From assembly GCF_964019385.1 (NCBI RefSeq), contig NC_088643.1, positions 76,837,747 through 76,901,746 on the forward strand: a DNA stretch of 64,000 nt, written 5' to 3'. The position numbers and the translations under genes are program-made. The stretch's first letter is position 1. The number at the start of each line of letters is the position of its first letter. Source of the stretch: Sycon ciliatum. Its lineage: Eukaryota > Porifera > Calcarea > Leucosolenida > Sycettidae. A model generated the notes under the pieces. The model ran no database searches, had not been told where the DNA came from, and worked only from the letters and a program-made list of their open reading frames with translations. Below, piece by piece: positions 1 through 35,873 of the stretch.

Positions 1-2359
1 TTGCAGGGAATCGTGATGAAGGTGGCAACAGATTTCGGGTATGTGAACACATTGGCAATGACGGTTGATGACAATGATGGTGTTCCATGATCGCGTGCCC
101 GCACACTGAATGCAAGATGCACATATGTCTCAAGGACATCGTCTGTGGTGATCTTTCCGGACTCAGGAGCGACCTGAAATATCCCTGCATCGCCCACGTT
201 GTACGTGACCAGCGCGTTGGATCCAGCATCAGCATCAATGGCGGTGACAGTCAGGATGACACCTGGTACGTGCTGTGTTTCTGGCTGTACCAATGCAGCC
301 GCATAGTATGCTTCTTCGGTGAACACTGGTCGGTTGTCATTCTCATCGATCACGGTCACGTTGATGGTGAAGAGTGTCGAGATATTATTGAGTTGAGGAT
401 TTGTCATTCGAAGCGTCACGAGCAGGTAAGGGTTTTCTTCTCGGTCTATCACGTCGGGAGTTGTTACCATGAGTTCGTTGGTCAAACCGGACAGTGCAAA
501 GTGATTTCCACTGCTCTGGCCGACGATTGTGAAGTTGGCCATGACGTGAGATGGCAAGCCGCCAGGCTCCTGTACGTCCGTTGTGTTCAGCACGTTAAAA
601 CCTGGCGCAGTGTTCTCATCAACGTCGGCTGATATCCTGACTGGTACGGGACCTAAGTCATCGGGATCATCGGGACCGAGGAATGTCACAATAACACGTT
701 GGAAGCTGTACAGTCGAACAGTGCCATTGTCAGCAGCTTCAATGAACAGATAGTAAGACACGGGTCTTGCTTCTGTCGTCTCTTGCTCCAAGACAAGCTC
801 CCCGGTCGGCGACACAGAGAACAAGCTGTATGCATCAACAAACAGGTCATAGCTGACGTCAGCAGCATGATTCAGATCTGGATCGGTGGCGTTGGTCTGG
901 TAGATAACGTCTCCAGGTTGAGGTGTTCGGAGAGTCAGATGAACGTTGGATGTGTGGAACGTAGGATGGTTGTCATTGACATCCTTCAAGATGATTGTAA
1001 TGACGCACACAGCCGTGCGCCGCGGTGCCGGTGCAGGAGCCTGATCAGTGGCAATCACCCTGATCACCATTCCCAGAGGATGTGTTTCTCTGTCCAGAGT
1101 CTTCGCCACGATCACCTCACCACTCAACGGGTCCACTGTGAAGTACTTGGAGTAGGTGCCATTCTCAATCGTGTAGCGGACTTCTCCAGATGGACCAGAA
1201 TCTCCATCATAGGCCTGCGTCTGAGCGATAGTTTCATCAATCTTGATATCTTCCTTCACAGTAACAGTGTGAGATTTCGGATGGAAGAAAGGTGAATAAT
1301 CGTTGGACGCCAGAATTGTCAAAACAAACGTAGATGAGTTTCCAAGGAGCTGAGGAGATCCCCGGTCGTAAACCTGAAGCTCATACATGATCTGTGAAGT
1401 CTTGTTCCAGACCAGTTGGTCCATCAGAGTTAACACACCGCTGTTGGGATCCAGTGATACAATTCTCTCCAGCCACATCGAGTCGTAGTCGGACAGATTG
1501 TTGACAGTCTCGTACTCGACCGCTAAGATGGTGTCGTTGTCGATTCCCCAGACTGGGAAAGCAAACCCGGTCATGGTCATGTTATACCACACCGAGCCAT
1601 TGCTTCCAAGATCAGCATCCGTCGCGCTGACCAGTCCCAGCGTTGTACCGAATGCCGCATCCTCGCTGACTGCTATTGACCAGTTAAAGGTGGTGAACAC
1701 AGGCTTATTATCATTGGCGTCTTCAATCAGTATGCTTACATTCGTTTCTGTTGAGAGAGATACTCTTGGCGGAGCTTCATTGATCCTCGCAATAGACAGG
1801 GTGAAGGAATACTCATCCAACGTCTCTCTATCAAGGTGTCTGTCCAGCCATAGATCTCCTGAAGCAGAGTCGAGATGGAATGGAAGGCTGTCTGCGTTTC
1901 CAGATGTGATGCTGTAAACGTACGAGTTGATTTCAAAGTTTTCACGCTTCTCAGGAAGAATTTTGGCGATTGAGCCACCCACAGGAACTGCTTCTGATAC
2001 CTGGCGTATGGTGGGGTTTGTTTGATTGCACTGGAATCCCCAGGCATAACTGTCATCGCAAACGCACTCGTACATGGCAAGTCGATCAACACATGTGCTA
2101 CCAAGCGCACATGGATTCGACTCACACTCGTCAATCTCCACTTCACAATGAGTACCAGTGTAACCAATGCTACACAGGCATGAATAGTCGCGGTCACCAC
2201 TCAGACAGAAGCCATCGTTCGCGCACAGTCTGGCCGCAAATTCACCGTCACAGTCACACAGATCGCCAATACCATCTCCATCGCTGTCCACTTGTAAAGT
2301 GTTCTTGTAGTGTATGCAATTGTCAATCACATCCGGTATTCCATCTCCATCTTGGTCAG
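1..2359 (-). CDS. Gene A exon 6 (3' partial): TSP type-3, two EGF, cadherin repeats
   Basis: Entered in phase 1 at TCTGCAG|CTGACC and open to the window edge. The join gives [18 protein letters not shown], an intact thrombospondin type-3 calcium motif, followed by [12 protein letters not shown]. An EGF unit (CANDGFC...[12 protein letters not shown]) and a calcium-binding EGF ([10 protein letters not shown]) come next. Then at least six cadherin repeats follow, with [24 protein letters not shown] and DADAGSNA calcium motifs and a final [11 protein letters not shown]. Cadherin ectodomains need calcium for rigidity and adhesion. No transmembrane segment is reached. Plus-strand frames here are shadows. 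Confidence 0.9.
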
Positions 2360-2578
2360 CTGCAGATTGAACAAGAACAATGACAAGCCCGAGTGGCCAG
2401 GAGTCAACAATAATGTAGAGGACTAGAATCGAATTTTTCCAGAAAGGAATGGATATACTCATTACATTTGCTTGTACTCTCAGTACCATGACTTTCATGC
2501 CCAGTGAGGGATTTGGACTATGGAGCATGAAAACATGTCCTGCTCTACAGCAAAAGAAAAAGAGAATGTGTGTGCAGG

Positions 2579-2618
<40 letters not shown>

Positions 2619-5600: not shown

Positions 5601-8600
5601 AGATCGGTAGATGAAGAAGACCTCGGTGAGATTGGCACGGACCTTGACTGGCTCAGTGATAAGGCTGCTATCACTACTGAACAGTTTCAAATCAAAGGTG
5701 TAGTCGGCACTCATCAAACCCTGTACAGAACACAAATATACGCAACGAGTTAGTACATGTACATGCGCTGCTCTCGTCACACAGCCTCATTGGCAAACAA
5801 GAGGAACAATTTAACATCCCAGCATCGGCAAACAAGAGGAACAATTTAGCATCCCTTGTAAAGCAGTGCGCAACGCTTTGCCCTATACCATAATTATCTT
5901 TTTCTCCTCCAGGTTTGGTAAAATCTGCAACTGCAATTCATCACCATTAGGCATTCGCCTGGATAATTTTTCAGAAACTGCATATTTTTTATCATCAATC
6001 CAGATGTGAAAAAAGGAATTTTGACAACTTCCAACTACAATAAAATTACCAAAGCTCTACTTGAAGTACATGTAGTTCATAGTGACCACAAGAGGTTTTA
6101 CGCAGAACCCAGGAGCTTTTTTAACAGTTCGAGGGCACTGCCCGCGGTCACCCAGCAAGCATACCTCCTAAAACCACCATGGCAAACCAGAAATGACTGC
6201 AATAGCATGAGCAGTGACAGCAAACCTGGTGCAGCTAAAGCCAGAAATGCACGTACATGTACACACATCACCAGCCACAGCAGTCAGAAAAAAAACATTC
6301 CAGTGATTATCAGAAACAATGGTTTTTGACACAAGGCTCCGATGTGGCAAAAAGGATAACATTGATGTTATCACATCAGCATATGGAGGGTTCAGGCAAG
6401 CATAGTAATTACAAGACAACAGACGGCAATGGCGGACATCACATCAGAGACGTGCTTACATTTGGAGCAGTTTTGGCGGGGTCGACGTACGAAGGGCCGG
6501 CACCTCGCTTCCGGCGTGATCCCGTGGCGAAGTCACGATTCTCCAACCGACGTCCGGTGATATTCAGCCCGCCATTGTAGTCAACTGCGCTGAATTTATA
6601 AGCACCTATGGAGTCGGTCTGATTGACAAGCAACTCTCCGCTGCTGTCGTTCAGTCGGTCACCACCGACACTTGAAGACAGATCGGTGGAGTCAAAATAG
6701 ATGAAAGTGCTATCGTCGAAGGACACTTCCACCTCAGTAAGACTTTCACCGACGACAAAGCCATTGGAAGTCATGTTAGATGTCAGACCAGCGTAGTTCT
6801 CAGCCTCGACAGTAACGTAGTATTTTGAGTTGACCAAGAGCTTGACATTAGGAACAATGTATTGAGTAGTGACTCCCACCTCAACGCCAGAAGCCATGTC
6901 ATTTCCACCTGGCGTCGTTCCGACCGAGATCCTGTACAGGCGCACGCCACTGTCTTCGTCCGCTCCGATCCAGTTGGTTGGCACAGCGTCGGTGAACACC
7001 ATGCGTATCTCATCTGGTGGGAAATAGCCGTCGTTCACCACCGTCATGACAGGTGGAGTGAGATCCACGACCAGTCCATTAGATGTTGCGTTAGCTGACA
7101 GGTTGGCCCAGTTGTACGCCACTACGGTTATATAGTATGTTTGCTTGTCAACAATCCTACAGTCTGAACAACCCGACGCAAACGACGTGTTTCCTGTCGG
7201 CGTTAGTGCTATGAAGTCACACTCTCCAGGCGTTGTACCAACGCACCAATAATATTCTCTGATTCCACTCTCTGCGTCATCAAATCCACCGAATGTGCAG
7301 CCCATATCGAATGTGCTCACGTCCAAATACTGTGCGTCGTTTCCATCAGTGCCATCAAGCACATCACCGGGAATTGGAGGTGTTACATCCAGCTCAAACA
7401 CAGCTGATGTTGAAGACAGCTTTCTTCCAGACGGACTAGTTGAGTTCACCTGAAGCACATACCTTTCAGCCTGGGTCAATCCAGGGCCAGTTACAATAGG
7501 CACAACTGTGTTGATACGCTTTTGATTTGGACGAAGACACGACGCAGATTTGTCGCAGAAGCGACAGTCGTCCAAGACACCACCACTGGAAAGGGAGCCA
7601 CCTTCACACGGTTTACACTGCAATGGCAATCTTTGCAGATCTGATGTGCCTTGTCTGCTGTTGTTTCTATTGCAGAATGGTGCCACTTGAATGGTACTGT
7701 TTGCTTGTATGCTCGCTAGTAGCTCGTAACCGAATGAGACCGAGTCTGTTCCAATGTTGCCATCTGTTGAAGCGGTGTTCTCTGTACGTCCAATTCCAGT
7801 ACACACTACACGTTGTTTTTGTTGATCCAGCTGGACATCAACCATGTTGATATAGTCCTTTTGAGTGGTATTTGATGTCACAACCAGTACTCCACCGTCA
7901 CCACTGGCATCAGCCTGCCATTGCAGTGAGTTGCCAAATCGTTCCGTGCTGAGCTTTTTTCCTCTAAGTGTGCACTGTGGTGTAGAGGTCGGTGCTGGAC
8001 AAAGTGTTGCTGACTGGCTGGTGAGTTTGATGACCCTGACCTCGCCGCTAGAGCTGCTGGATGCAGGGCTGCTGCTCTTGCTTCCCAGTCCCACTGCTAG
8101 ATAGTTCTCTGTGCCGATGTTCATCAGCTTCACAGATTGCACTGGACCATTGAATGGCATTGTGCAGTTGTTTACAAAGCGACCACTGCTAGTCCTTACT
8201 AGTAGAGTCACACTATCCAGATGTGATTGTGAAATAGCAAGTAAGTCGTCAGTTCCATCAATGTGCAGATCATTCCTGTCCTGAACAGGTCGAGTGCACT
8301 CCGACAGTGAGAACCCACTAGAGTCAAATGGACACGGTAGATAGCTTCCGCCATTCATCTCCACAACAAAGAAAGTGTACGTGTTGGTGATGACAAGTGG
8401 CGTGTGGAGACGTACAGCATTTGGAATATCAGATACACTCAACTTTTGGCTCACTGCTGGTTTACTTGGTGTTGCTCCACTGAACACTAGGTTCTCAAGT
8501 CGATTTGCCGACATCAAGACTAGTGAGTTGCCATCACTAGCACTGGACCAACTTGTTGTGTTGTCGCTGTCAGCAGCTTCCTCCAGGCGATACAGCAACT

Positions 8601-11600
8601 CCGAAGGAAGATCGGCATGGAACACAAGAGCTTGGCTGGCACTTCCCAGTGAAATATATCCAGACGACGAGATCGCCACAGTGGAAAGAGCTGCATCGAC
8701 ACCCACCACAGACATCTGTGTGCCAAAGGCAAATGTGTCAGCAGCACGGCGTGTAGAAGCACAGCATGGCGAGTCCGAATCCTCGAAAATACCCATGGTG
8801 ATGTTCTGACCTGCATAGTCACCGGTCAGGATGTAGTCTGTTGCCAATGTTGTGTCGTTGTTGGTGGTAGAGTTGCCCAATTCAATGCTTGGAATGGATA
8901 GGTGATACACGGTCCTTGGGTCGAGAGCGTGGCGACCATCAGCAATTGCGTCAGCACCAACTGCCACTGTTCCATTAGCAGTGCTGACATTTCCAGACAA
9001 CACAATGGACGAGGCAATATTCACCGGGTCACTGACGTACGACGACGCATAGATTTCACCACCTGACCAACCTTCAACGCTAAACTGGGTAGCTGGTACC
9101 TCTACTGTGAAGCCATCACTACGGGCCTCCACAAACCTCTGCGCATTGTTGTATCCTCGGATCACAATGATATATCTCCTCTCTGGAAGCAGCAAATTAG
9201 AAGATGCCACAATACTTGTATTCAATCCAGCAGTGCTGTAATTCTGCACTGAAACTGCCTGTAGCCATGAATCGCCGTCTGTAGAACGCTTTTGTTCTAG
9301 AATAGCAAACTCATAACGGTCAATTCCACTCTCGCTGTCGCTGAACGGCAGCCAATTAGCACTGACTGTAGTGGCATCCACTTGATAGTCCAGCTCTTGT
9401 TGAGGATCTTGTGACAAGCCGTCAAAGACTTGGGCCGCACGTGGGGGCGTTCGGTCAACAAGTACACCATCAGACGTGACCGTAGTCATCAATCCTGCCC
9501 TGTTCGTACCGGTCACGGATACAAAGTACATCTGGTTGTGCTGCAGTTGCAATCCCGTCATCACCGCGCTTGTTGCCTTCCCAACAGCTGTCGGTTGCAG
9601 AATGTCGGCCTTCATCGGCTGAGTGCCAATGCTCCATGTGTACTCCAGGGAGTCTGTGTGATTGTGTGCAAAGCCACTCCAACTAGCGGACAACTCTGTC
9701 TTGCTAAATTGATAGTCAATGTCTTCAGTTCCAGTACCATCATATACTTCACCAGCTGGTGGAGCTTGTGTAATAACTTCAACACCATTAGTGAAGACCT
9801 CAGTAGACATTCCTGCAGCATTGGTAGCAGTCACCTTCACAACATAAAGACTCAAATCAGTAAGAGGTAGAGAGAGGGTAGCGGATGTTGCCATCTTATT
9901 TGATATCTTCTTGCAAATGATTGAGATGTTGCGATGATCTTCCTCATGAGCACAAACTTCGAAGGAATCAATCATACTCTCACTGTCCTGGATGTTCCAA
10001 TTCACTGACAACTCAGATACATTGGTCTGGTAGCTTGTATCGGATCCGAGAGTTGAGCCATCATACACAAAGTTGACCTCTGGTGGCGTTGAGTCAACTG
10101 TTACAGATGAAAGAGATGTGACTTCAGTGAACAGGCCTGCTCCGTTGTATGCCCGGATTACAACAACATACGTATCACCATCTAGCAACCGAACTGAACT
10201 CGTGGCATTCATATGCTTGCCAACATTGATGAAGTTCAGTGGACATCTGCTGGAGGAGAGAGAACAGACTTTGAGCATGTAGTGTGTTATTCCACTGTCG
10301 CTATCCATGAATCCGCTCCAACTGGCTGAGATGCCCGTCAAGTCGGATTGGTATCCCACACTGCTATCCAGCCAAACCAGACCGGATCGAGGCGGTGAAG
10401 CATCAATCTTTACACCATCGGTGGACAGCTGCGTTGACCGGTTGGCTTTGTTCCAGGCTCTCACGGTGGGGTATACCGTGTCACCTGTCTTCAGTGTGCA
10501 CGCCAATGTTGTTTCCAGCAAAACACCAACGTTGGTCCAATCGCGAACATCAGTCAATCCTGGTGCTGATCCTACAGCCACATCATAGTGGTCTATATCA
10601 CTGATGTTATCGGAAAACAATGCCCAGGAAACTGCCACCGCTACTGTATTGCTACTGTAATCAGAGTCCACATCACTCAGGCCATCCAGAACTAGACCAG
10701 TACGTGGTGGCGACAAGTCAATCACCACAACACTTGTCAGGATGCTGCGTGTTAAGCCAGCACCATTCGCTGCCCGGACTGTCGTGTAGTATGTCGCTCC
10801 TTCCTTCAGCTTGGCTGAGTTGTAGACTGCAGTTGTCGTCTTAGTGTCCACTGGTGTACAGGGCATGACATCATCGAGAGTAGTCAGTGATGAACCGATG
10901 CACCAAGACTGATTCAAAATACCACTTTGATGGTCTAGGAAACCTTCCCATGCAGTGCTAATTTCCAGCTTGCTGACATACGTTATAGATGTTCGGTCGG
11001 CTTTCTTGCTTGCTATGACAGTCTCTGGCGGCGTCCAGTCAAAAGTAGTGCAAGCTGAGTCAGCAGTGGCGACTGCACCGGCACCATTCGTTACCTTCAC
11101 CTTCGCAAAGTAGCAGACACCGGGTTTGATTTGAGAATTGAAGGAGCTGGCATTGGTGTTCTTCAGGACATTGGTGAAGTTCTGAATGCAATGCTCACCA
11201 GTGGGCGTAAGCGAGCAGATGGACCACTCGCTCTTGCCTATGCCACTTTCTGCATCAGATGTTGTCCAGTGGGCTGCAAATGTGGACTGTATGCTCTCGT
11301 AGGCACCGTACACTGCATTCCTGGGACCGGCACCCACACTGGCAATAGTCGGTGGAGAGGAATCAACGGTGAGACCATTGGACGTTATCACTTTACTTCT
11401 TCCAGCAGGATTGATTGCACGCACGGACACGAATATCTTGCTTCCACTGGTGATAGGCCTCAGCATTACATTAGCATCTGTGTTCAAACCAACACTGGTA
11501 AATGCCAAGACGTCACTGTACCCGGCTTTGGAACCGATGGCCCATTCATAGTCCACGATACCACTTTCTGCGTCGGTGCAGGCATCCCATGAAGCAGAGA

Positions 11601-14600
11601 CGTGATTGACAGAGCTCTGGTAGTCGGAATCAGTTCGTGCACTGCCGTCTCGGATCAAGGTGCATGCTGGTTCCGTCGTGTCGATTGTGATGCCGTCTGA
11701 GTGCGAGATAGTGAACAAACCTGCTCTGTTTGTAGCTCTCACGGCCACAAAGTATGTGCCGGAATGTGCCAATGCCAGGCCTGATACACTTGCCTTCAAG
11801 TCTGCGCCCTGAACTGTGGTCCATGCTAGCACATCACACTTCTCCAGCGCACTACCAACGCACCAGTCATACGTCAGTATACCACTTTCAACATCACTGA
11901 ACTTTGTCCAGCTGGCAGATGCTATAGATGCTGTACTTTGATAATCTGCATCTGCTAGACCACTTCCGTCCATCACTTGTCCAGGCAATGGTGACGTTGA
12001 GTCAAATGTGATTGGTTTAGAAATTACTGTTGTTGTTGATCCTGCATTGTTAGTAGCTCTTACCAGCACAACATAGCATTGGCCGCTGACGAGGGCAAGA
12101 TTGGGATTGGTCGAATTTGTTGCCATGCCAACCGAAGTGAAGTTCTGTAGACACACCGTGTTGTCCTCGCTGTTACACAGAGCCCATTCATACGATCTGA
12201 TACCAGACTGCATGTCATTGAACTGCCATTTCCCTGTGATTTGGCTGCTCCTGGAGTATTCAATGTGGTTTGTTCCGTCTTCGGTTGCAATCAAATAAAC
12301 CTCCTCAGGTGCACTGGAGTCGATAATGATACCATTGGTTGACGCTTGTGTTGACAGTCCAGCACCGTTGGTTACTTTCAGCGTTGTGAAGTATTTGTCT
12401 CCTTCCGTGATGTTGGCATTCTTGAATGTAAACGACGAGACGATTCCGATGTGTTTCATTGGAACGACGTCACACAGGCCTGCCTTCGTTCCGAGACAAA
12501 TCTCAAGCTTTGTGACATCAGTCTCATCATCCTTGAATCCACTCCATGATGCAGCAATGAACTGTCCATCAGATTGGTACTCCATGTCGCCCACCTCAAG
12601 ACCATCCCAAAGCCTTCCCATGGCCGGTGGAGTTTTGTCAACGACAAACAGATCGGAGTATGATTGGGTGCTCAAACCAGCGCCATCGAAAGCTTCGACG
12701 GTGGCCACCAGTAGACTGCCCTGCTTCACGTTGACCTTATCAGTGGAGGCGACTGTCGAAATGGCAGCGTCAGTCCAGTTCCATACATCACCCTGCCCGG
12801 CGCTGCTCCCCAAGCACCAGCGGTAGTTGGTTACACCGCTGTCCAGGTCTGTAAACCCTGTCCACTTCAGATTGAAAATATCGGATTTCAATTCAACTGT
12901 GACCACTCCACCTCGTGGTGGAGTGTTATCAACCGACAGTGACTGCGACGTTGATGTGACTGCAAACAGTCCAGCGTTGTTGAACACTTTGACAGTGGCA
13001 TAGATAGGCTGACCTTGTTTGTCGAGCAAGTTCGGTGGTATTATGAAGTCTGAGTTTTGGCCAAGATTGCTGGAATCCAGCACATTGTGACCGTGGGGAT
13101 ATGTGCCAAGAGATAGTAGCGAGTGAGAGATTGAACTCTGAGCGTCAGACGCCGTCCACTGCACCCGTACTTCTTCTTGAGAGCTAACAAACTTCCTGGC
13201 GGTGCTAAACGACAACATGCTGATGGCAGGAGCAGTTAGATCCACCACCACGCCATCTGATTCGGAACATTTCTTTTGTCCAATCTTGTTCACTGCGCAA
13301 ACACTGGCGTAGTACGTTCGGCCGTCAACTAGCTTCAGGCCGTGAACATAACCCGCAGATGATTTCAATCCTGCGTCTTTGTACGCGATGATGTCAGTAA
13401 GACCAGACGCTGTACCGAGTCCCCACTCATACCGTGCGATTCCGTGTGTTGGATCGCGGAAACCTTGCCAGCTGCACCATGCTGCTGTAGTGACAGTTTG
13501 GTAGTCTGAGTCGGCATCATCCGGCCCGTCATTCACCACACCAGCAACAAATATACCAAACGATGCCGTCACCACGTCAGAGCTTCCGTACGATGAGAGA
13601 CCGGCTCCGTTGGTGGCACGTACAATCACGCGATACTTGGCATTGTTGGTGACGGTGAAACTAGTCACCTGGCCTCTGGTAGCAATACCACCAGCTGCCG
13701 ATCTGCTGACTTTCTGGTAGCTAAGTGTGCTGTACGAACTGGTGGACGTACCGTCCGTTGTCATTGCCAATTCAATGCTGTTGATGTCCGTTTCGGGATC
13801 TGTGATACCGTACCACCTGGCAGATACGTTCACGGAAACAGACGTTGATGATGTTATTGTTGTTGGGTACAAGATGTTGCCCGTGATCTTGCCACCGAAA
13901 ACTGGCGGTGTGGTGTCGGTCGTGACTCTGGCGCTGTGCACATTCTTCAGACCAACCTTATCCTGGACTTCCAAAGTTAGGAAGTATTGCTTGTTGGCTT
14001 GGATGGTAACTGAAGCAAAGTCCAATGTGGAAATTGTCGTGACACTGCCGACAGTTGTAGTGGGGAGGATGTTGTCACCGCCATACTGATCACCGATTTT
14101 CAAGCTGAAGTTGTGGACACCACTGCCAACGTCAGTGGCAACCCAGGTACCAGTAATGGCATTTGTTGACTGACTGTACGCAAACTTGGCAGTGGTTATC
14201 TTGGGCGGTGTTGTGTCTACAATTACGCCATTGGTCTGATACACTGACTTGAGACCAGCTTTGTTGGAGAGGGAGATGTTCACAGTGTACTTTGTCCCCG
14301 AGACCAAAGTGTAGCCACTCACAACAGAGACATTCTCCGACAGCTTCAATGGTAACATGGCTGTTGTTGGAGTAGTTCTCGTGATAGAACTAATTCCTGA
14401 CTCCGGATCTGAACACTGCCAGTTTGCTGCGAGAGTAGCAGTGGTTACTTGGTACAGCAAGTCGGTAGCATACACGGACCCGTCGTAGACATGAGTACAC
14501 ACTGGTGGTGTCAGGTCCAACAGTACACCATCCGATGACAGTGTTGCCTGCAGCCTGGCCTTGTTGGTGACTCTCACCGTTGTATAGTACATTGTGTTCT

Positions 14601-17600
14601 GCACAAAACTGCCTGGTATGTCAGTTGATGTTTTGGACGTTGGCACACTCACAAATCCGACAATATCATCCTTGCCCTGGCTAGATCCAACACCAATATC
14701 AATACTGCCAATGCCACTCTGTAGGTCGATAATGTTCCAAGTTGCCTGCAGATGAGTCTTGTTTGACGTGTAATTCGTATCCACCTGTCGACTGCTTCCA
14801 TCGTTGATGAATATTGCGGTTGGCGGGGTGCTATCAAAGCCCATTCCATCACTGCTGTAGGATTCCTTCCAGCCCAGACCATTAGTTACACGAATAGTGC
14901 TGAAGTAGATAGTACCTTCCTTCATCGTGAAGGACAAATCCTGCTGTGATTTGACCGTATTAGATAGAGTAAAGAATGGCTTCACATTCTGTGCACCCGG
15001 AGACGTTCCGACTGCCCATTCCGTTTTTATTATACCACTCTCTGGGTCAGTGCAGTCAAAGTTGACGCTGAGTATGCCTGCTGTAGTGGTCCAGTCGACG
15101 TTGCCAGTCAAACCATCATGCACATGTGTACAGTTAGGTGGCGTGCTGTCCACTTGGAAGCCATTGCTTACTACCGTTGTTGACAGGCCAGCTTTGTTGA
15201 CAGCTTTCACAAGACTGTAGTATTTCTTGTTGTTCACCAGGCTGGCACCATAGACGATGGCTTGCTTTGTGATACCGACCGCTTTGAACTTGTATGCACT
15301 ATCTACCAGCTCTGTTGGATCCTCGGTAAGGCCCAGGTAGTATTGCTGAACTCCTGAATCACTGTCTGTGCAAGTGTCCCAGTTTGCTGCAAACCAGCTG
15401 TCTTGAGTGACCCAGGCAGCTTCACCATGCAGGCCATCTCTTATAGACCCACTGCACACTGGTGGAGATGAGTCCACAGTGATACCATTGGAAGCTGACA
15501 CTGTCACAAATCCAGCCAGATCTGTTTCTCGCACAAGGAAGTAGAGAGGTTTTCCACTTGGTAACCCAGTCACATCGGTGAGAGCTTTCGACGATGTTCT
15601 TATCGATACAGGTGTAAAGGGAATGATGTCGTCGGTGGTTTTAGTGGATCCAACAGCTACTTCCCTGCTCGCCAAACCCACATTGTCACCAGTCCACTTC
15701 CACTGGCCACCCAGTGTCTTGTTGAATGACTGGAAGTCGCTGTCCACTTTGCTCCAGCCATCCGTGACGACACCATGCTGCGGCGGCGTTCTATCTGCAG
15801 TGAATCCTCGCTTCGTCACGCTTGTGATCTGATTGGCTCCGTTGCGAGATGTGATGGTAAGGTAGTATGCCTGTCCATCAAACAGAGGACCGACAGTAGC
15901 AGAGGGCTGTCCACTTGCTGGAGGCTTAGTTGGAGGGATAAAGTCTGAGCCACCACTGTATGTGCCAATGAACCAGTAGTCCTCTACAACGCCCGATTCG
16001 GGATCAGATGTTGTGAAGTGAACAGTCAGATCCAGAAAGTCACTCTTCACCATATCTAGAGGTAGGGTGTCATTCGGGTCACTGACAAATACATCCTTGA
16101 CGATGGGATCCGTAGTGTCGACCGTAAAGCCATCACTCTTTCCCTCACTCTTCAGACCAGCCTTGTTGTAGAGACGTAGTGCAAACACATAGCTTTCACC
16201 ATCTACCAAGTCACCTGTTCTGCCAGTCACATCAAAATCCACACTAACGTACTGCCATGGAATCACTAGAGTTCCACTTTTCGACAGAACAGCTGTCTCG
16301 GCGTACTGCAGACCAGATTCCCAGTCGTACCATGAGTCTTTGCTGCACGTTGATGGGTCAGGTGTTTTTACTGCACCCACTGGAGGCCAGTTGTCAGATG
16401 CATTCGTAGCCATACAGAGCTTGTAATTGCCAAATGCTGATGTAGCATGGTGCCAGTAGTTGAGGTCGGTACCCAGTTTTTGTCCGTCACCAACAATGCC
16501 AACACGAGGTGCGGTTATGTCGACCATAAACCCGTCCGTCTCGGTTGATGATGTCAGCCCGGCCTCATTACTGCAGTTGATTCTGACTTTGTATATTCCA
16601 CCATTGTCAAGCTTCAACTCTGAGATTGTGGTAGCGGTGATGCTTTTGGGGTAGTCTGCATCAGCAAGTACAGTGCCAGCGCTATCCATTAGCTCAATGG
16701 TATACATGGTGACTGGACTTTCTGAGTCGAGGAAGACAAACTTCCACTGGGTGGATGAAGCTGCCGCTGTAGTTTGGTAGTCTTCATCAAAGCGATTGAA
16801 ACCAGTGGGCAACATGTCGTAAAGATAGCCCTGAGCAATATGGGGTGCTGTAATGTCCAACATAATTCCATCGGACCACTCTGTGCGTTCCAAACCAGCT
16901 CCGTTGCTGGCGCTGATCAGCACGTAGTAGGTCTTGCCGGGTACAACTGAGAAGGAGGAGAAGGTCACAGATCCAGTGTTGTTCTTGCCAATAGATACAT
17001 CCATATACGGATGCTCATCTTGACCACCCTTGAAAGATCCGATGGCTGCACGATATTTGACCAGACCACTTTCCTCATCCTGGCAGGACCAAGACGCCTT
17101 GATTTGCGGCAAGACTGCCGTGTAGTCAACATCTGTAGATAGTCCAGTTGCATCAGTGAGATCCAGGACAGGGGTGCATTCCGCAAAGGTGTAGTCAATA
17201 GTGAATCCATCTGATGTAACGTTTGTGATGAGACCAGCCCTGTTCCACACTCTGACAAACGTGCGGTACGTTTGGCCTTGCTTCATTTTCAGACCATTTG
17301 CATAGGCGTTGGTACTCAGGCCAACGGACCTCCAATCAAACAGCTCATCACCGGCATAGTCTATAATCGTCCATTCATAGTGTACGAGGGGACTTTCAGG
17401 ATCACTGAAACCACTCCAAGCAACCTTGATGTTCACCGTCGAGATCAGGTAGTCCTTATCATTCTTTTGATCATAGACATATGAGCCTTCAATGACCTTG
17501 CCTGCCACAGGGTGGGTTGTGTCGATGAGCACTCCGGTACTGCTCATTGTAGTCACCATACCAAGTTTATTGGTGGAGACCACAGTGACATAGTAGCGTT

Positions 17601-20600
17601 GATTGTGTTGCAGATTCAGCTCAGTGTTCACCAATTCGTTTGTGTAGCCAGCATTTATGAATGGCTGCACGTCACTTGCACCAGGTTTAGTGCCTATTGC
17701 CCAGTCTGTACTGGCGATAGGTGTTTCATCACTGACAGTCATGACGGCTTGAAGGGTATCCGTGCTCCACTGATAGTCCACATCACCAGTGTGCGTGTAG
17801 TTACCATCGCGCAGTGTCACATATGGTGATGTTGTATCGGCTACGAATGGCTTGGATGTCACTGGAGTGATAAGGGTCTCTTCATTGCGACAATAGACCG
17901 TGACAAACACTTGCTTGTTGTGAGGCAGAGAGAGACTTCCGAGAGAGGCTGTTGATGCAGATGCCTGGTCGGTCTGGGCCAGAATGTTCTTTCCACCAGC
18001 AAAGGTTCCCACACTGATATCATAATTCAGTTCTTGAGACTCCGGGTCGTTGAAGCCCTCCCAAGATGAAAAGATACTATCCTTAGATGTTTGCTTGGCC
18101 TGCAATGTTCCTGGGTTCGGGTAGGTCTTATCTGGAGGCTTCAGGCAAAATGTCAGAACCCTGGCATTGAAACGGCCAACGCTGAAGGATGCCACAGTAG
18201 CATAGAGAGGGTCACACCAGTCGAACCAAGGTATGCAGATCGGGGTGCTGCCTCCGAGGCATTTCCACTTGATGCAAATCCTGAAGCTCACAAAGGCCCG
18301 CAGCGACAGTGTCAGTGCAGTAGCGTCAACGTCAACAAGCAAACAGATTTTCAGTGCACCGGAGGTTGTCAAGCCGAGGGACACGGTCGGTAGGAACTGG
18401 GTCTTCATGATGGTAGCGCGCAGCTCAATTCCAAATCGGACAATAAAAGCGTTGACCGCCAACTGGCCGGCAATATCCAGTTGAGCATAGGGGATGACTG
18501 ACCCCTTGATACTGCGGTCTGCCAGGCATAAGCCAGCTGTGTAATCCACACCCCAGCCGGCATCTATCAGCATTGTGAAATCCATCGGGATGACAAACAC
18601 TACGAAGTAGATTCTGTACGTGAGGAGTCTCTTCAGCTTTGGTTTGAGAAGAACACCGCCAGTAGTGAAGCAACCATCGAAAGGATCATCAGGTGACCGC
18701 TTCTCTCGCTTCTTGTTTTTCTTGGTGGCGGTATACTTATCGCTTCCAAATTTGATAAGAGGCTTAGGAGATACGACGTACTTATTCAAAACCTTCAGGT
18801 AGCGCTGATTCTTTATGACCGCTTTCTTCGGATCCAATTGCTGTTCCATTACAGGGAACGTGAATGTCCAGCTGCTGTCCTCAACATCGGCAATGGAGAG
18901 CGCAATGTTAGCCTGGTTAGCTTGCGCACCGCTGTCAAACGTGATGACAAGATTATCGTCAATCTTACCAGTGTATCCAAGTCCACATGCACCATCAGGC
19001 ACACGCACAGAGCGAGAAGGATCCTTTTTGAGGAGGGATTTCATCGACACTCCTTTGTAGGGATAGGACGAACCACTGACTGGTATCTTCCTGAAGTCGG
19101 TACGGCATGCAAAGCCGATTTGCTTCATGCAGACTAGCAGTGCAGCATAGCGGCCGAAAGGACGTTCTGCAACGACCAAGTCCTGGACACCAGGACCAAC
19201 GAGCAAAGCAGCAGACGGACGCATTGACCTGGATTGTATTGAGCCATCGCTGTTGAGCTTCACGCCGATGGCTATGCCGCCTTCGCCGATTTTGTGGCTC
19301 TTGGGAATATCTTCCTTTCCACGGATGTCGTAGTAGTCACTCAGCCACAGGAGGCCCTTTGATTTCTCGAAATACACGCCATACCCGTACACATCTGGAT
19401 GGTAAGTGTTCTTGATCGAAACACCAGATGGACCCGGGGTGCTGAGCGTTGACAGGAAGTCTGATTTCAAAATGGCATGCAGAACACTGCGACGCTTTTT
19501 GGAGACATGATACGAACCGAAGAGGTAGATATAGTTCCCGGCTTCAGCAATACCAAACTGAGTTGTTTCCAGCTTGGACATTGGATCCGTTATTGTGTAG
19601 ATTTTGAGGAATGCTCCGGTTTTCTTGTTCATTGCTACAATCAGTGGTGTTTTTCCGGCATTCAAGTCAGTGCCAAATAGCGTCTGCAGCACAATGTCCT
19701 TGTCCCTGTCCAGCATGGTGATGCCTTGAGCGTTCCAATCTTCGTACAGGCCGGGTATTATGAATTGTTGCCGAGACAGTGTGAAGAAATGAATGTACTT
19801 CAGCGGTGCCACGTAGTCACGGTAAGCTATTGTAGAGCGCGCTAATTGTCGAATACACACAGTATCTGAGCATTGGCTCAAGTCGGACCACGGCTTGAAT
19901 GTTGAGGGGTCAATTGAGCGGCTCTGCCATTGCAGGCTGTCCAGGAATGCCTTCACTTTCTTTAGGATATCTCTTGGGATCTTTAGGATGTCTTGGAGGA
20001 AGCCAGTGACCTTGGAGACAATGTCAAAGCTCAGTACACCCTTCACGGCTCTCACCACCTCTCTGGCTTGTTGAAGATAGCCAGATGCTGTCTGGTATGC
20101 CCTGTACACTGAGGAGCTCTTGAACAGCTTGATTGCCTCAGAAAAGGCAACCGCTGTCAGCCAAGGTTTAAGTTGTGCTGGATTAGGTATAACCGATGAC
20201 AGTCGATTGACGAAGGAGCATGATGTGCTGATGTCATTTGCAAATGTCCGCATCTTCTCCACAAAACCACCGGGACCAATTGCCTTAGAGAGAGTTGTTG
20301 TAACTGTCGATGTTATTGTGCTTCTCACAACTTCAACGCTTGATCTAAGTTTGCCAATTGTCTTTGTCAGCACACCCAACACACTGTCCTTTGCCAGCTT
20401 TTCCAGGCTCGCGAAATAGGCGATATACTTCAGTGCCTTTTGCTGGAGCGGTTTAAACGGCTGGAATGTCTTTGTCAATGAAAGGGTGCCTTGTTTCAGA
20501 AAACCCAAGTCATTATTCACAAAGTTTGACACGGTGCCAAGTTGAGATTGTAGTGTATTCATTGCCTTGACGACAACAGCCAAGTCATCCTTCAATACAT

Positions 20601-23600
20601 CCGTCACACACACCGAGCCAGGAACGCAGACGAAGTTGACATAGTCATCCAGTTGAGACATGTGATCGTTCAGCATAAACTGTACACTGGAGCGCAGGCT
20701 TTTGTAGTCTTTATAGTAGCGCTCCACAATCGGTACTGTTGTGTTGACAATTCTTGCTAGTGTTTGTCGGTAGGTTGAAACTTTGGTAGCAATTGTCTTG
20801 AGAGCAGTGAGTTGGGGCAAAATGTTGGTTGAATTTATCTTGAACTGGACAAACTCGCCGGCCAGGTTGATTTTGGATCTGGCTTGATCTGCCACATCAG
20901 CTAATATTGTGTGGTAGCTCTTTATCCGAGATCTGATAACAGAGACGCCGTCCGAAATTAGAGAGCGACTGTAAGCTTTGAACTCCTGTACCAACGACTG
21001 TATCCTGCTCATAATGTTGATGCTGTTCCGTGTCTTCTGGATTAGACCGTTGATTTCACTTTCCTTTTGAGAGACAAGCCCAGAAACCAAGTCAAGTTTC
21101 TGATTGATTAGGGACTGTAGCGGAGCTGTCAGTTTGGTTGTCTTGTTGTAGGCATCATACAGGCGGTTAGCGATGAAGTCGATTCGAGTTCCTTCAACAA
21201 CAATGTTGTTAGCCATCTGGACAAATTTATGGACGGATTCTCCAGTAGGGCCGAGAAACTTGAGATGTTTTGAGAAGCGAGCTGCACCATCCAACACATC
21301 ACGTGACAGTTGCAGCACTTTTCCAAATGTGCTGTTGCTCTTATCAAGTACCCAGTTGCGGAGGTCATTAAGTTTCTTCAACGTGAACTCGATGACGACT
21401 TCTGCCTTGTCATTGATAAAGCCCTGCACGGCATTGATAGCTTTCTGTATGTAGGGCTTGATCTTCAGGGCGATCAAGTCGTTCACAAATGTTGCCAGCT
21501 TTGTCACTTGTTCCTGAAGAAGGTTGCTGGCTTTGTCCAAAAGCTGTCCAAGATTGACCCTTTTCCCAGCATCCATGAACGAGTTCAGTAGAGCGTTAGC
21601 AACATCGTCAATGAAGGCATTGACCTTGCTCTCAACGGTAAGGATCAACTCGTCAACTTTGTTCAAAAGTGCAGCACCTTTGTCTTCTGCAATTTTCACA
21701 CCTTGCTGCAACTTGACCATGGCAGTCTGCACAGTTGACGACAACTTCCTTGACGCTGCAGCGTTGATGTCACTCAGAATGATTATAGCCTTATCGGCTT
21801 TTGCAATCAACGCGTTAATAGCCGGGCCACCCTTCTGATCAAGGTTATTGTAGAAAGTCAGTGCACTATCTGCAATGGTCTTCAGCTGCTCAATCTTATC
21901 ATCAGCTTTGTTGATGGAGTTGTTAACGAAGGTAATGGCCGATGCAAACTTTTGCTTGATCTTTTGCCGCACTGCTATTGGTGTGCCTGAAGCTATGCCG
22001 TATGTTGTGAAGTTGTGAATGGCATCCTTGGATTGTTCAACGGTCACATTCAAGTCCGTTATGACATTATTGATCTCCGTTGGAAGAGTTGTGCTCCAGC
22101 TTACAACCAAGGAAAATTTGAATGTCGTATCTCCAAAATCCAGGGCAGGCTGCAAAGCGGTCTTTACTTGTCCCATAATGTCGATGGATTGAATGATGTT
22201 TGTCGACATGTTTTCCACAGTGTCCAGGGCGTTCACCGTCTTATCTAAGACAGTGTCCGTGATGAGCAGAGCAGAGGACTGGATTTCAGTCAGAGTGTCT
22301 TGGATGCGATCCGCAACTTTGTTGATGGCACCGGACACTGGGCCGGTGATGTTGTTGCAGACTCCTTCCAGTTTGTCGAATTTACTCTGGATTACGTTGT
22401 ACACGTTCTGAAGAGTATTGAATGTCTTTGTTACAAACTGGAGCTGTGGCAATTGATCCAGCAGCTTCTTGGCCAACTTATCAAAGTCGGTCATTTCCTC
22501 GATTTTGGCAAGAGCATTGTCCACGTTGTCCACAAATTTCTTGGCCGGCTTCACAAATTCTATGAGAGGATTGGTGATGAGCTTGGCAATGGGCTGGATG
22601 TAGCTCTCGAGAAGGTCAATGAACTTGTGTATTTGCTGCATGACGACCTGCGTCGCTGACTTGATGGATGAGGCAGCATTGCTTATCACGGCCCAGGCTG
22701 AATCCAGCAGGTCTGGCGGGATGAGGTTTTTGTAGGTGAGGGCAGCGCTGAATTCCACAAGTCCATCAACTAGGTCGTACTTTGTGCCGAATGCGTTCAA
22801 CCAAATTAGACCTTGGTTGTAGATGTCGATATCAATTTTGCCATCAAACACGGAGAGGTAGACGTTGAGAAGGTTACGGAGCACCAAGCTGGCCTCAGCA
22901 GACGCATACTTGAATCCCAGCTTTTGGGGTCTCCATTCTTTGTTAATACCAATTTGGGCATCAACGAGGGGCTTGAGGAATTGGCGTACTGTCACTGCTC
23001 TCTTTACGCGCTGCCTCGTTTCTCTGACCGTCTTTCCAGTCGCTTGAAGCGATTGCCAGAACTCGAAGTCCTCGTCTGTGATCTCTTCATTCTTCTCAAA
23101 GAAAGCACGTAGGGCAGATTCCATGGGGCTCTCAGAGCCAATCTCAGCAAGAGCATGCTCGCGTATGTGTTGCAAGGTGGATGGTTTGATGCCAATGTTC
23201 CGGTGTCGTGTGCGCAGGCTATGCACAATGACGGCCTTGTCGTCGCTAGTCGCATTCACGTGTTGCATTTCCGTCACGTACAAATCCTCCGCTCGCGTGC
23301 AGTTGAAATGTGCCAGTGCATGTAGAGCGGTCTGACGTACGCCAATGCGCTCATCACGCAGCCAAGGTAGCAAGCTGTAGAAAGTGCTGCACTCGCGACT
23401 GTTGGCAAGCGCTGCCAGATGAGCATGCGTATAGGACTCCTGGTCCTCGTGGGACAGGTGGACTGGTGATATAAGCAGTCTGCTCTGGATGTGTTTCAGA
23501 GCTGCCGCCTTGTGTGCGGGATGCTCGTCCCTGATTGTGTGACTCACCGATCCAAGTGCCAGTGTCGCAGCAAGTTGCACATCCAGATCAGAATGTTGCT

Positions 23601-25309
23601 CTGCCACTGTTAAGATGGCCGAGGCAAAGCTGTGATGAACGTCATCTATGAAATGACCTTCCAACAAGATGTCGCTAATGTGCTCATGAGGCTGCGTGCT
23701 ATTCAGTAGTACTCGAGCCAAACATTGCTGAGCGTTCAGATTGAGTAGAGATGCAGCCAGTTGAACTCGGAGCTCAAGTCTAGACGAAACGTGACCAGAA
23801 CAAAGACGGCTTGTTGCCTCTGAGACTACGGCATCATTCTCTGACGCTTCCGTTAGGACTTCCTTCAGACAGTCTCCTTCATCATGAGGCTTTTGGGCAT
23901 TGGTCAGGCAAGTTGCAAAGTATGACAGATGCTCTGAAGGCGATTTGGCCTCTTTCGTTTCATCTTCATCAGTAGGGTAGCTGAAGTATGGCAATTGGTG
24001 GAGATCCGTTGTGTGCATTAGGCTTTCCTTCACATAAGCATCACGGACGGCGCTGTCTGTCTCACTCGAACGTCGCCATCTTGATGAGCTGCATGAGCCA
24101 GTTTTTTTCAGCTGTCCTCTCGCAAACACTTCCAAGTCACTCGCCGGTGACGGGTTTTTCTCGTATCGGCGAGCTGGTTTTGAGCCAGGATGGTTGTTGT
24201 ATTTGAAAGCCACTGAATCCAGGACACCTTCCTTGATGGCAAAGTCGAATTCGTACTGAGCTGTACTTGTGCCTTCTTCCAGTGCTGGATGAGCAAACTG
24301 CAGGAAGTCCTTGCCAGACACAGTTTTAGTTAGGTCAATTGACATTTTGCCTTGACTGTTGACCTCCATTGAGTGGACGGTGTAGTTTGACCTGTACCGG
24401 CCACTTTCTCCCGTCTCCTCAGAAATGTAGCTCCGAACTTCAGGGTTTGATATGTTCAGCTGGATACTGGCCAGTAGACCTGCAGAGAAAGAAAGATGGG
24501 AAGGAAACAATGGCCATGTTTTAGCACTAGTTAACCAAATCATGTCATTCCGAGTTTACCTATTTTTACCTGAAAACTGGCACTGTCCAAGTACAAACAA
24601 ATTTGCCAATGCTCACTCCCTCTATTTCTATCTCTCCCTCTCCAAATTATGACCTCGAGTAATAATCCACTGTAAGTTTTAAGGACAACCCTCTGGTGTA
24701 AAAGGCAAAGGCCCCGTCGAATTTCACATTGCCGATAATCTTAATCATATAATGGTGTTAAGTGAAGGGTGCTGGACCGAGGCAGTAATGGCGGGGGAGG
24801 CAAAAGCCTGTCCACGTGATGATTCATACTCATCTACATAACATGTCTAGAAGGGAGGTCACAGTATAGTATCACAAAACTGCATGTGTGAGCTTCAATG
24901 AAAATAAACGGGATGTAACTGCAAAACACTTTGCTCACCGGGTCCCAGAAACCATGTCCTCGACCTAAAAAACATACCTCTCTTGAAAACATTAGCGTTG
25001 ACATGATCATCCTTTGGAAATAGGATGTGAGTGATATGGCCAGTGGTATCTTGTTCAAAGAAGAGTTCACCAGCTAGTGTTTCCTGCAGCTCATGGTCAA
25101 CACCCTGACATTGTCCACCTATGCATGGGCGCGGACGAGAAATTGTCGCCTTTATTAGCCACATGTCTGGATTTGTAGAGACTTGACGAACTGTCTTCAT
25201 TTCCACCTGTGCACGGGTATGAACACATTACAGCAGAACATATCACACAGTGATTTATTCCAAACAGATTAAAACAAAAGACCGGGAACAAAACTTCGGG
25301 CCAGTGCAT

Positions 25310-25355
<46 letters not shown>

Positions 25356-28300
25356 CCAGTAGGTCTTGCAACCACTACTAGCATGTCACAGACAGGCTGG
25401 ATCCAATTTCTATTGAAGAATGCACTTTCAGCACGGTTTACACCACAGCGGAATCACTCTTCTATATCACCCTCCACTAATTCTTGTGATCCTTGACTGG
25501 TCCTATAATTATTACCCATGCAGCCATAATATCACATTACGATCACCCATTCACTTGTAATAGGGCTAGATTGGGCTTTTAAGGACTGCCATGGGTCGGG
25601 TTGGATACTTACATGATTGTATTAATCCCTACGGTTTGCATCTACTCGTAAGTCAACATTTGGGTACCTGTTTAAAAGTGGTTCTCGCCAGACTTTGAAT
25701 GTGAAATTTTTGCATGAAGGTACCCCTGAACCTTTTCATTACTCTAGACTAATAAAACTTTACCAGCAGTCACAGTATTAAGTCCCTGCACTTTGTTTGC
25801 TTGTTTTTGATCTATTTCAGTTTGTTGCCTCAATAGTTCAATGACTATGTACAACTTCAAAGCGGTTCAAACAGGAAAAAAAATAAATGATGGTCATCAG
25901 AAAGGGAGCTGCACTAACTGATTTTCTCCCCCCCCCCCCCCCCACACATCCTCTCCATATACCCCCCCCCCCCCCCACACACACACACATCCTCTCCATA
26001 ACCCCCCCCCCCCCACAAACACACACATCCTCTCCATTTACCCCCCCCCCCCCACACACACACACATCCTCTCCATATACCCCCCCCCCCCCACACACAC
26101 ACATCCTCTCCATATACCCCCCCCCCCCCACACACACACACATCCTCTCCATATACCCCCCCCCCCCCACACACACACACACATCCTCTCCATATACCCC
26201 CCCCCCCCACACACACACATCCTCTCCATATACCCCCCCCCCCCCCACACACACACATCCTCTCCATATACCCCCCCCCACACACACACACACATCCTCT
26301 CCATATACCCCCCCCCCCCCCACACACACACACACATCCTCTCCATATACCCCCCCCCCCCCCACACACACACACACATCCTCTCCATATACCCCCCCCC
26401 CCCCCCACACACACACATCCTCTCCATATACCCCCCCCCCCCCACACACACACACACTGTAGTGTTATCTTGTAGATCATTTACAGTAATATTCCATATT
26501 GCACTCGGCACAATGGGTATTTACAGTAATATTCCATATTGCACTCGGCACAATGGGTATTGACAGTAATATTCCATATTGCACTCGGCACAATGGGTAT
26601 TGACAGTAATATTCCATATTGCACTCGGCACAATGGGTATTGACAGTAATATTCCATATTGCACTCGGCACAATGGGTATTGACAGTAATATTCCATATT
26701 GCACTCGGCACAATGGGTATTGACAGTAATATTCCATATTGCACTCGGCACAATGGGTATTGACAGTAATATTCCATATTGCACTCGGCACAATGGGTAT
26801 TGACAGTAATATTCCATATTGCACTCGGCACAATGGGTATTGACAGTAATATTCCATATTGCACTCGGCACAATGGGTATTGACAGTAATATTCCATATT
26901 GCACTCGGCACAATGGGTATTGACAGTAATATTCCATATTGCACTCGGCACAATGAGTATTGACAGTAATATTCCATATTGCACTCGGCACAATGGGTAT
27001 TGTTCTCTGTAGTCGACATTAATGCGACCCCCCCCCCCCCCCTTTGTCTTTGTCTTCTCCACTAATCTTGCATGGTGCTGTCCGTGAAAATGAGTCTCAC
27101 GATCTCCTACTTCAAGCGCATGATGGCAAGATGCGAACGCATGAGCGATGCACAGTGCATGTGTCGTTTCACACGACCTGCACACATGACCGCGTGCAGG
27201 TCAAGTGGACAATGCGTGTGCAATAGCGCCGAAACGCAACTCGCACTGCACGCCATTTTTAGACCATCAGCAACCTGCATTATATACTGTTGTGTCAAAC
27301 ATTGCCTCTGGGCCTTTGGCATCTATGCACACTCTCGCGAAGCATTGGTTCACTGTGGCGTTGTGCTCATGACCAAATAAGGAAGTCAGGGCGCACCACG
27401 AAAGTCCACCTTCCTTCACAGGAAAATCATCCTAGCAGACATCAACGACCCACAATTGAGCAATTCGGGGCTGTCGTAATGTGCTGCGCACTGCATTCAT
27501 ATCAGCAGGGTAGTTGACATACGTATGCATTGTCATGTGATCACCATTCACTTCGACTTGCCACAGGTGCACTAGTATGAGTTGAGGATTATGCAGAGCA
27601 CTGTCTGTGGGTGGCTGCAACCCATAACCCGGTGGCAGCATAATTATTACTAGCACCAGTACTGGTAGTTGACACACCATACCCATACTAGGGCCATTGG
27701 CATAGCCACTGAGTGACAGCAGTAGTCAACATGGCATGTCACCACTGACCACACGCTCTCAAAAACATGCACCGTGATCTATCATGCTCTGAAGCCAGTG
27801 AAAGGCTATCCACAACCTTACTTGGCCACACTAGCTGGCCACAGTAGTCAGTAGCTGCTTGTCAGATATCATACCAATAGTATGGTAACGACCTTGGGCT
27901 CAGCCGGTCTAGTACCATGAACGTGCAAAATACAATTAGCAGGTAAGCATGGGGAAGACTTCAGCCGACCATATTACTAATGCCGTCATTGCATCAGCAA
28001 TCAGCAAGCCAGTTCTAAGTGACTACTGAATGGACATGACTTGAAATATGCAATTAGCCAGAAAAATACTGCCCCTGATTTTCCCCACAGCATACTAGTT
28101 GACCAAAACATGTCACCATTGTTTTCATCATGCATGATGCCTATGAACAATCAGTGACCGCCGCGATAGTTATTCAAGATCAACATTGGTTGTGAGGAAG
28201 ATGTGTATGGCAGGCTGGCCAACTGATAATTTCTTTATGCACTTAAGGTACGTTCAGGCCTCGTTTAAATCTGGCTTTGGAAAATTCATTTTTCACTGCT

Positions 28301-34689: not shown

Positions 34690-35873
34690 GAAACTCGGAT
34701 GTTGAGCCATAAATAAATGTGGAAGAGAAAAGGACATATGGATACGAGTTAAGAGTAACTCTCCATCACTGTAACATGATCCTATATACAGTCAGAAAGT
34801 GCAATAACTAGGCACAAAACTGACAGAGTACTGAAACATTCGACGTCCTGACACCTAGCTTCAACACATCTCCGTAGCGCTAACCGACAGCCTTCCAACT
34901 TGGAAGGTTCAAGGTTATGGAAAAGACCAAAGAGGGGAAGGCAAGCGCAACGAAAACGAGCAAAAGCTACAGTCCCAACGGAACAAAGAATGTCGATTGT
35001 TACTGGACGATGACGAGACCAGTACGATATTTGACAAAGCGGTCTAACTACAATTCGAAGCAGCAAAGCAGCACACCACCCAACTTGGGTGGGTCATAAA
35101 TATCAAAGATAAGTAAAGAAAGGGAAGCTTTGCGAAAACGAATTGTACAAGCCGAAAGCCAAACTCCTACAGTACTCCTCATGCATGACAATGTGATGGA
35201 CTAGTTGACTACAAAACAAGTTGTTTCACACGACGTACGTTTCGCCGTATGGTTCGTGACGGCTCATCAGGTGTGCAATTTGAAACTCGGATGTTGAGCC
35301 ATAAATAAATGTGGAAGAGAAAAGGACATATGGATACGAGTTAAGAGTAACTCTCCATCACTGTAACATGATCCTATATACAGTCAGAAAGTGCAATAAC
35401 TAGGCACAAAACTGACAGAGTACTGAAACATTCGACGTCCTGACACCTAGCTTCAACACATCTCCGTAGCGCTAACCGACAGCCTTCCAACTTGGAAGGT
35501 TCAAGGTTATGGAAAAGACCAAAGAGGGGAAGGCAAGCGCAACGAAAACGAGCAAAAGCTACAGTCCCAACGGAACAAAGAATGTCGATTGTTACTGGAC
35601 GATGACGAGACCAGTACGATATTTGACAAAGCGGTCTAACTACAATTCGAAGCAGCAAAGCAGCACACCACCCAACTTGGGTGGGTCATAAATATCAAAG
35701 ATAAGTAAAGAAAGGGAAGCTTTGCGAAAACGAATTGTACAAGCCGAAAGCCAAACTCCTACAGTACTCCTCATGCATGACAATGTGATGGACTAGTTGA
35801 CTACAAAACAAGTTGTTTCACACGACGTACGTTTCGCCGTATGGTTCGTGACGGCTCATCAGGTGTGCAATTT
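34690..35873. repeat. 592-bp tandem duplication
   Basis: Two consecutive identical-looking 592-bp units; the offset is exact between GAAACTCGG landmarks at 34690, 35282 and 35874. Each carries the same meaningless 94-codon minus-strand frame. The near-identity implies a very recent duplication or an assembly artefact. Confidence 0.95.

Follow-up and report, generated by a model that had tools for sequence, protein, structure and literature searches.

The window, by which we mean the whole stretch of 64,000 nucleotides analysed (C1:76837747-76901746), carries on its minus strand a giant gene whose predicted product begins with a module that appears to be of the LLTP type (vitellogenin/MTP/apoB) and continues into adhesion modules. 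One uninterrupted frame of 6,038 codons runs from 24555 to 6439. Six phase-matched exons, starting at an ATG at 32011, join into 7,688 codons without a stop up to the window edge; the phases at the joins, from exon 1 to exon 6, are 0, 1, 0, 1 and 1. Exon 1 (32011-31688), placed by its splice sites and phases, has a signal-peptide-like start and the first LLTP-type strands, and ends in AGISTD in phase 0. It shares its phase and 42% identity over 64 aa with exon 1 of a paralogue at 68.75 Mb, one of two paralogues described below. Exon 2 (25206-24978; phase 0 in, phase 1 out) carries part of the LLTP beta-barrel, ends in NVFKRG and is 51% and 32% identical to the paralogues. The giant exon 3 (24479-6460), placed by its open frame and phases, has 18,020 bases in one open frame and encodes residues 185-6191 of the joined protein. 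Exon 4 (5720-3755; 45% and 33% identity to the paralogues) holds Calx-beta, a degenerate cadherin and an Ephrin_rec_like (GCC2/3-type) motif, as recognised by Pfam, and exon 5 (3140-2973; 61% and 42%) a second GCC2/3-type cysteine motif, recognised by eye. Exon 6 (2359 to the edge at 1) holds TSP type-3, EGF and cadherin repeats by Pfam and, according to the flanking bases, extends beyond the window edge to about -107. The first-pass annotation had placed a signal peptide, an LPD_N head and adhesion modules in one gene, and this uninterrupted chain bears it out. Furthermore, exon 3 alone encodes part of the LLTP-type N-terminus together with 30-31 FN3-like repeats, so the LLTP/FN3 fusion is independent of splicing. 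The exon chain, the domain order, the conservation in the paralogues and the conserved RX[KR]R sites are all read directly from the sequence.

An extra exon at 29051-28877 was dropped because its phases fit neither neighbour and exons 1 and 2 join directly in phase 0, as in the paralogue. The Vitellogenin_N score was 21.9 bits for the model with this stretch and 22.4 bits for the model without it. A dicodon test gave -0.22 for exon 5 (below coding), 0.05 for exon 1 and 0.03 for the rejected exon, against a null with a 95% point of 0.02 and a maximum of 0.36; the test is a soft one, as its 201 null frames came from the DNA that trained its own background. Intron 1 contains, at about 25887-27061, long tandem arrays in the translations, a GT-rich array followed by another repeated unit. 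Elsewhere in the window, a giant plus-strand frame of 2,405 codons (44109-51326) with 19 FN3-like repeat matches points away from the LLTP-headed gene, and a thrombospondin-type-1-like stretch was seen, by eye only, near 40.6-40.9 kb. Two minus-strand frames of 103 codons each (34782-35093 and 35374-35685), 592 bases apart and identical in translation, are probably a recent direct duplication.

The Pfam profile Vitellogenin_N (cut-off 24 bits) matched the N-terminal 761 residues of the window gene at residues 163-237, spanning the exon 2/3 junction, with an E value of 5.3e-5 and 22.4 bits, 1.6 bits short of the cut-off. The two paralogues on C1 exceeded the cut-off, with 44.7 bits (E 9.3e-12) and 35.4 bits (E 6.3e-9). 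At E 0.01 the profile matched three of the four family members (the window gene, its paralogues and the protein P0001 of a second genome); the one without a match, P0001, starts inside the module and has no exons 1-2. The proposed assignment to PF01347 thus holds above the cut-off in both paralogues but falls slightly below it in the window gene itself. A genome-wide Vitellogenin_N search, run exon by exon with the best candidates scored, returned one other locus only, and neither the window gene nor the paralogues appeared in it. The LLTP module had been assigned to exons 1-3; it is present there, but its extent has to be corrected, as it reaches only about 490 codons into exon 3.

A profile built from the four members matched lipovitellin (1LSH) with an E value of 0.0076 (profile positions 54-114, chain positions 90-149), the seventh of 18 PDB matches. 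Designed alphaRep-type proteins or their fusions made up 16 of the 18, one was another HEAT protein, and those ranked above lipovitellin were of the designed HEAT type. Searching the PDB sequences directly with the protein of the window gene gave no useful match; one of these searches used a model containing the rejected 29051-28877 stretch. Residues 322-674 (23011-24069), where an LLTP would have its alpha-superhelix, appear helical and HEAT-like, as judged from helices in a low-confidence model and a HEAT_2 match below cut-off; HEAT_2 matched two of the four members. The structure prediction of the N-terminus had a mean pLDDT of 37.5, too poor to judge an LLTP cavity. A short segment that follows (residues 679-785, 22678-22998), beta by eye, is 45-54% identical to all three relatives and is also matched in P0002, a more distant protein discussed below. 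At E up to 0.1, Pfam matched neither DUF1943 nor DUF1081 in exon 3, and it showed no VWD in exon 3, exon 4 or the window part of exon 6. It is chiefly the lack of a match to these three domains that argues against a functional lipid cavity. MTP has no VWD either. According to PMC1783640, DUF1081 is common to the APO group of LLTPs only, so it does not define the superfamily. Taken together, the sequence comparisons support an N-terminus of the LLTP type for the window gene, and we infer that such a head may load or bind lipid.

Beyond the LLTP-type module, about 920 residues of exon 3 (786-1705, 19918-22677) are predicted to be amphipathic helix, both from hydrophobic periodicity and from helices in the model. 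The periodicity peaked at 100-102.5 degrees in all four members. Its power in the window gene was 3.08; shuffled sequences (n = 50) averaged 1.17 and never exceeded 1.58, and two FN3 stretches of the same length in the same gene gave 1.04-1.30. Pfam DUF7217 scored below cut-off on this region. A match to a '60 kDa protein', obtained with a three-sequence profile (E 7e-4), was set aside as helix likeness. The adjoining residues 1706-2108 (18709-19917) are 47-58% identical to all three relatives and are probably a beta-propeller, as judged from a weak model (mean pLDDT <40) and Foldseek. The best 50 of 658 Foldseek matches, which we take to be mostly propeller proteins, had TM-scores of 0.14-0.24 when normalised by the query and 0.10-0.35 when normalised by the target. 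A cysteine-containing domain, read as beta, occupies residues 2113-2298 (18139-18696); it is 36-54% identical to the three relatives and has no Pfam match. No relative was found in bacterial or archaeal contigs with the propeller alignment, nor in viral contigs with two alignments.

The remainder of exon 3 is dominated by FN3-like repeats. Pfam was run on exon 3 in three pieces, on exon 4 and on the window part of exon 6; it recognised fn3 (1e-11) in one stretch of the third exon 3 piece only. An HMM made from 14 of the protein's own repeats gave 31 matches, two of which (residues 2837-2879 and 2894-2970) could belong to a single unit; the count is therefore 30 or 31, in agreement with the roughly 30 repeats first noticed. 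The same HMM placed 29 matches, including the two that may be one unit, in a first block (residues 2299-5309, 9106-18138) and the last two repeats at residues 5881-6093 (6754-7392). Calx-beta (2.1e-15), Cadherin (5.2e-54, six stretches) and EGF (5.7e-7) were all matched by Pfam, as had been predicted from the translations. The proposed GCC2/GCC3 motif was recovered as Ephrin_rec_like (1.4e-9), which we take as being of the GCC2/GCC3 type. For TSP type-3 the outcome was mixed, since a TSP_3 signal is present but reaches only 20.9 bits, under the cut-off of 25.

The exon chain stands as far as the window goes, but the protein does not end at the window edge and continues to a transmembrane exon to the left, on the same strand, at about -572 to -832. 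This exon was placed by hydropathy and by a phase shared with one paralogue; it encodes a strongly hydrophobic stretch followed by basic stop-transfer residues. Extended through this exon, the model is stop-free over 7,811 codons, with its most hydrophobic window (3.39) beginning at residue 7781. Exon 6 joins the transmembrane exon in phase 2 in the 68.75-Mb paralogue as it does in the window gene, and the two transmembrane exons start alike (TSLEVIF in the paralogue, TLLEVVV in the window gene). In the same soft dicodon test, the transmembrane exon scored 0.15 and a candidate tail exon 0.32, against the null 95% point of 0.02. For the candidate tail exons, no counterpart was found in either paralogue at E 0.01. 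Downstream NPx[YF] motifs (three sense vs. one antisense), alike for the window gene and one paralogue, are weakly above chance. The product may accordingly span the membrane as a type I protein and be no shorter than 7,811 residues, which we hold with even confidence as part of the furin-processed, tethered LLTP-head reading set out below.

Furin-type RX[KR]R motifs occur four times in the first 6,191 residues, compared with a mean of 0.62 in 300 shuffles, and they fall at module borders. Site 1 (RWRR, residues 318-321, 24070-24081) lies between barrel and superhelix, and site 2 (RVKR, residues 675-678, 22999-23010) at the end of the helical region. Site 3 (REKR, residues 2109-2112, 18697-18708) follows the propeller-like domain, and site 4 (RRKR, residues 6173-6176, 6505-6516) stands just before exon 4. 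Sites 1, 2 and 4 are present in all four family members and site 3 in three of the four; additional motifs are limited to one overlapping in P0001 and one elsewhere in the 86.13-Mb copy. According to PMC1783640, the convertase site of most insect vitellogenins falls between motifs N6 and N7. That of apolipocrustacein falls between N19 and N20, at residues 725-728 in one shrimp, a placement resembling that of the apolipophorin II/I furin site. By place along the module, unaligned, we would read site 1 as corresponding to the N6/N7 position and site 2 to the N19/N20 position. The conserved sites predict cuts on either side of the superhelix and just before the Calx-beta part. Head and stalk may therefore be separate chains, and these sites count against a simple one-chain receptor.

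Two protein relatives of the window gene passed among 5,070 candidates. P0001 (6,006 aa), from the second genome, aligns over all of exon 3, with identity at 3038 of 6037 positions (50%) and 1% gaps. P0002 (5,953 aa) is 21% identical over the beta-like and helical segment and 34% over the start of the propeller-like domain. Vitellogenin_N gave 24.5 bits in P0002 (profile positions 475-564), and HEAT_2 gave 28.4 bits at the same place; the former may thus reflect HEAT likeness, as HEAT_2 scores higher there. P0002 has a HEAT/LLTP-type superhelix, several thousand residues that are mostly helical by eye and the beginning of the propeller-like domain; no FN3 repeats were seen by eye, and the gene is possibly incomplete. 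Its composition gives a hint that the core may predate the FN3/cadherin part. Size-limited protein sets (about 550-1750 aa and about 330-1050 aa) contained no relatives among the roughly 8,000 best word-sharing candidates scored in each.

The window's own genome was searched over 538 Mb in 313 contigs. With the initial 1,000 residues of exon 3 as query, three loci were identified, all on C1 and all with frames of about 6,000 codons, and a search with the propeller returned the same three. In the paralogues, one at 68.75 Mb and the other at 86.13 Mb, the open frames of exon 3 have 6,035 and 6,095 codons. Both keep the window gene's order of exons 2 to 6 and have the same phases as it at joins 2/3, 4/5 and 5/6. 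Exon 1 was found in the 68.75-Mb copy only, where the phases could also be compared, and agree, at 1/2, 3/4 and the join of exon 6 to the transmembrane exon. The 86.13-Mb paralogue showed no transmembrane exon in about 17 kb scanned (frames of at least 45 codons). Exon 6 of this paralogue (C1:86.10-86.12 Mb; L021, L022) is a frame of 1,342 codons in which cadherin repeats turn into unlike 3' sequence. In an unrooted tree of the four sequences, the window gene groups with the 68.75-Mb copy. The same domain order thus exists elsewhere in the two paralogues, but the support from the second genome extends to exon 3 only. A separate LLTP exon was observed at C1:95558344-95558784 (L001), with Vitellogenin_N at 27.4 and 29.7 bits in two scans; by eye it sits in an intron-rich gene and perhaps belongs to an ordinary lipid carrier of this genome.

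The original proposal was that a lipid-loading domain is coupled to an adhesion or matrix scaffold. It is supported in part: the LLTP-type N-terminus, the modules and the anchor are arranged as one predicted gene, but DUF1943, DUF1081 and VWD have no match and lipid loading is a conjecture. Our preferred reading, held with about as much confidence as doubt, is that the product consists of furin-cut, partly associated chains in which an LLTP/amphipathic-helix head able to bind lipid sits on an adhesive, membrane-anchored stalk. The LLTP-type head would be followed by the amphipathic helical region, the propeller-like domain and the 30-31 FN3-like repeats, then by the Calx-beta/GCC/TSP3/EGF/cadherin stalk and the transmembrane helix. 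In the secretory pathway, the precursor would be cleaved by a furin-like protease behind the barrel and behind the superhelix, usually also behind the propeller, and once more ahead of the Calx-beta part. The cleaved chains would stay partly associated, as in apolipophorin II/I, whose chains remain together after cleavage. The adhesive stalk would then display the head, capable of lipid binding, on the cell surface or within the matrix. More tentatively, and as a possibility rather than a probability, the protein could be a membrane-tethered lipoprotein, its head lipidated during secretion, cut by furin, still attached and displayed on the cadherin/EGF stalk for intercellular exchange of lipid or lipid-bound signals; it would represent an LLTP branch with an old core (LLTP head, long helices and propeller) shared with the organism of P0002.

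The same gene and protein could also carry an LLTP-type module without lipid loading, serving as a structural or protein-binding head of a matrix or adhesion protein. We regard this as a serious minority possibility. The three unmatched domains favour it, as do the little beta sequence apparent (in a weak model) between superhelix and helical region, the bulk of adhesion/matrix repeats, and the lower conservation of barrel and superhelix (30-49% identity to relatives) than of the FN3 part (43-60%). However, barrel, superhelix and adjoining segment are still at 30-54% identity, and the long amphipathic helices suit lipid association. It is unlikely that the precursor is a polyprotein from which furin-type cleavage frees an LLTP-like carrier, the fusion being a device for co-expression with no tethering: the RX[KR]R sites mark four module borders and three of these sites recur in every member, which would fit such release, but the apolipophorin chains stay associated after the cut. 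That two adjacent genes, or an assembly or annotation artefact, were joined on paper is very improbable, as a single open exon holds both the LLTP-type superhelix region and the FN3 repeats, three loci share the order and another genome has the same exon.

The LLTPs known so far act as lipid carriers that are either soluble or resident in the ER. In the titles and abstract openings of the open-access literature, we found no description of a fusion between an LLTP module and cadherin or FN3 repeats. If the preferred reading of a lipid-binding head on a tethered stalk is true, a membrane-anchored LLTP on an adhesion stalk would link lipid transport to cell adhesion. The conversion of a lipid nutrient uptake system into one of cell-cell communication is raised as a possibility in PMC9222137. 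The window gene would then be a concrete candidate for lipid uptake recruited to cell-cell communication, and would test the diversification of LLTPs. Even with lipid loading lost, the presence of an LLTP-type head on adhesion proteins encoded by three genes would count as a novel use of this module.

Compared with known systems, the window gene shares an N-terminal LPD_N module and very large size with apolipophorin II/I, apoB and apolipocrustacein. ApoB also has long amphipathic helical regions, as the window gene does. Those three proteins are soluble, whereas the window gene adds a propeller, FN3-like repeats, cadherins and a transmembrane helix. A further likeness to apolipophorin II/I and apolipocrustacein is the RX(K/R)R convertase site, and all three carry DUF1081 and VWD, according to PMC1783640. 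With vitellogenin the window gene has the LPD_N module in common, but it shows no VWD or open beta-sheet match and has a membrane-anchored adhesion part. A Daphnia vitellogenin reportedly has a superoxide-dismutase-like domain, so LLTPs can acquire extra domains. The microsomal triglyceride transfer protein (MTP) would be similar in its barrel and, if the helical region is one, in its superhelix, and the exon 1/2 and 2/3 joins presumably resemble MTP motifs, which is a lead only; MTP is shorter, ER-resident and without adhesion modules. The giant non-classical cadherins of the Fat/CELSR type share the cadherin and EGF repeats and the transmembrane helix, but the cadherins of the window gene are confined to the membrane-proximal part, and we know of no LLTP module in Fat/CELSR-type cadherins. 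Finally, members of the LRP1/LDL receptor family are furin-cut and membrane-anchored and have NPxY-type tail motifs, features in which the predicted product may resemble them, weakly so for the motifs. They bind lipoproteins through LDLa repeats, whereas the window gene has a lipid-carrier-type module built in.
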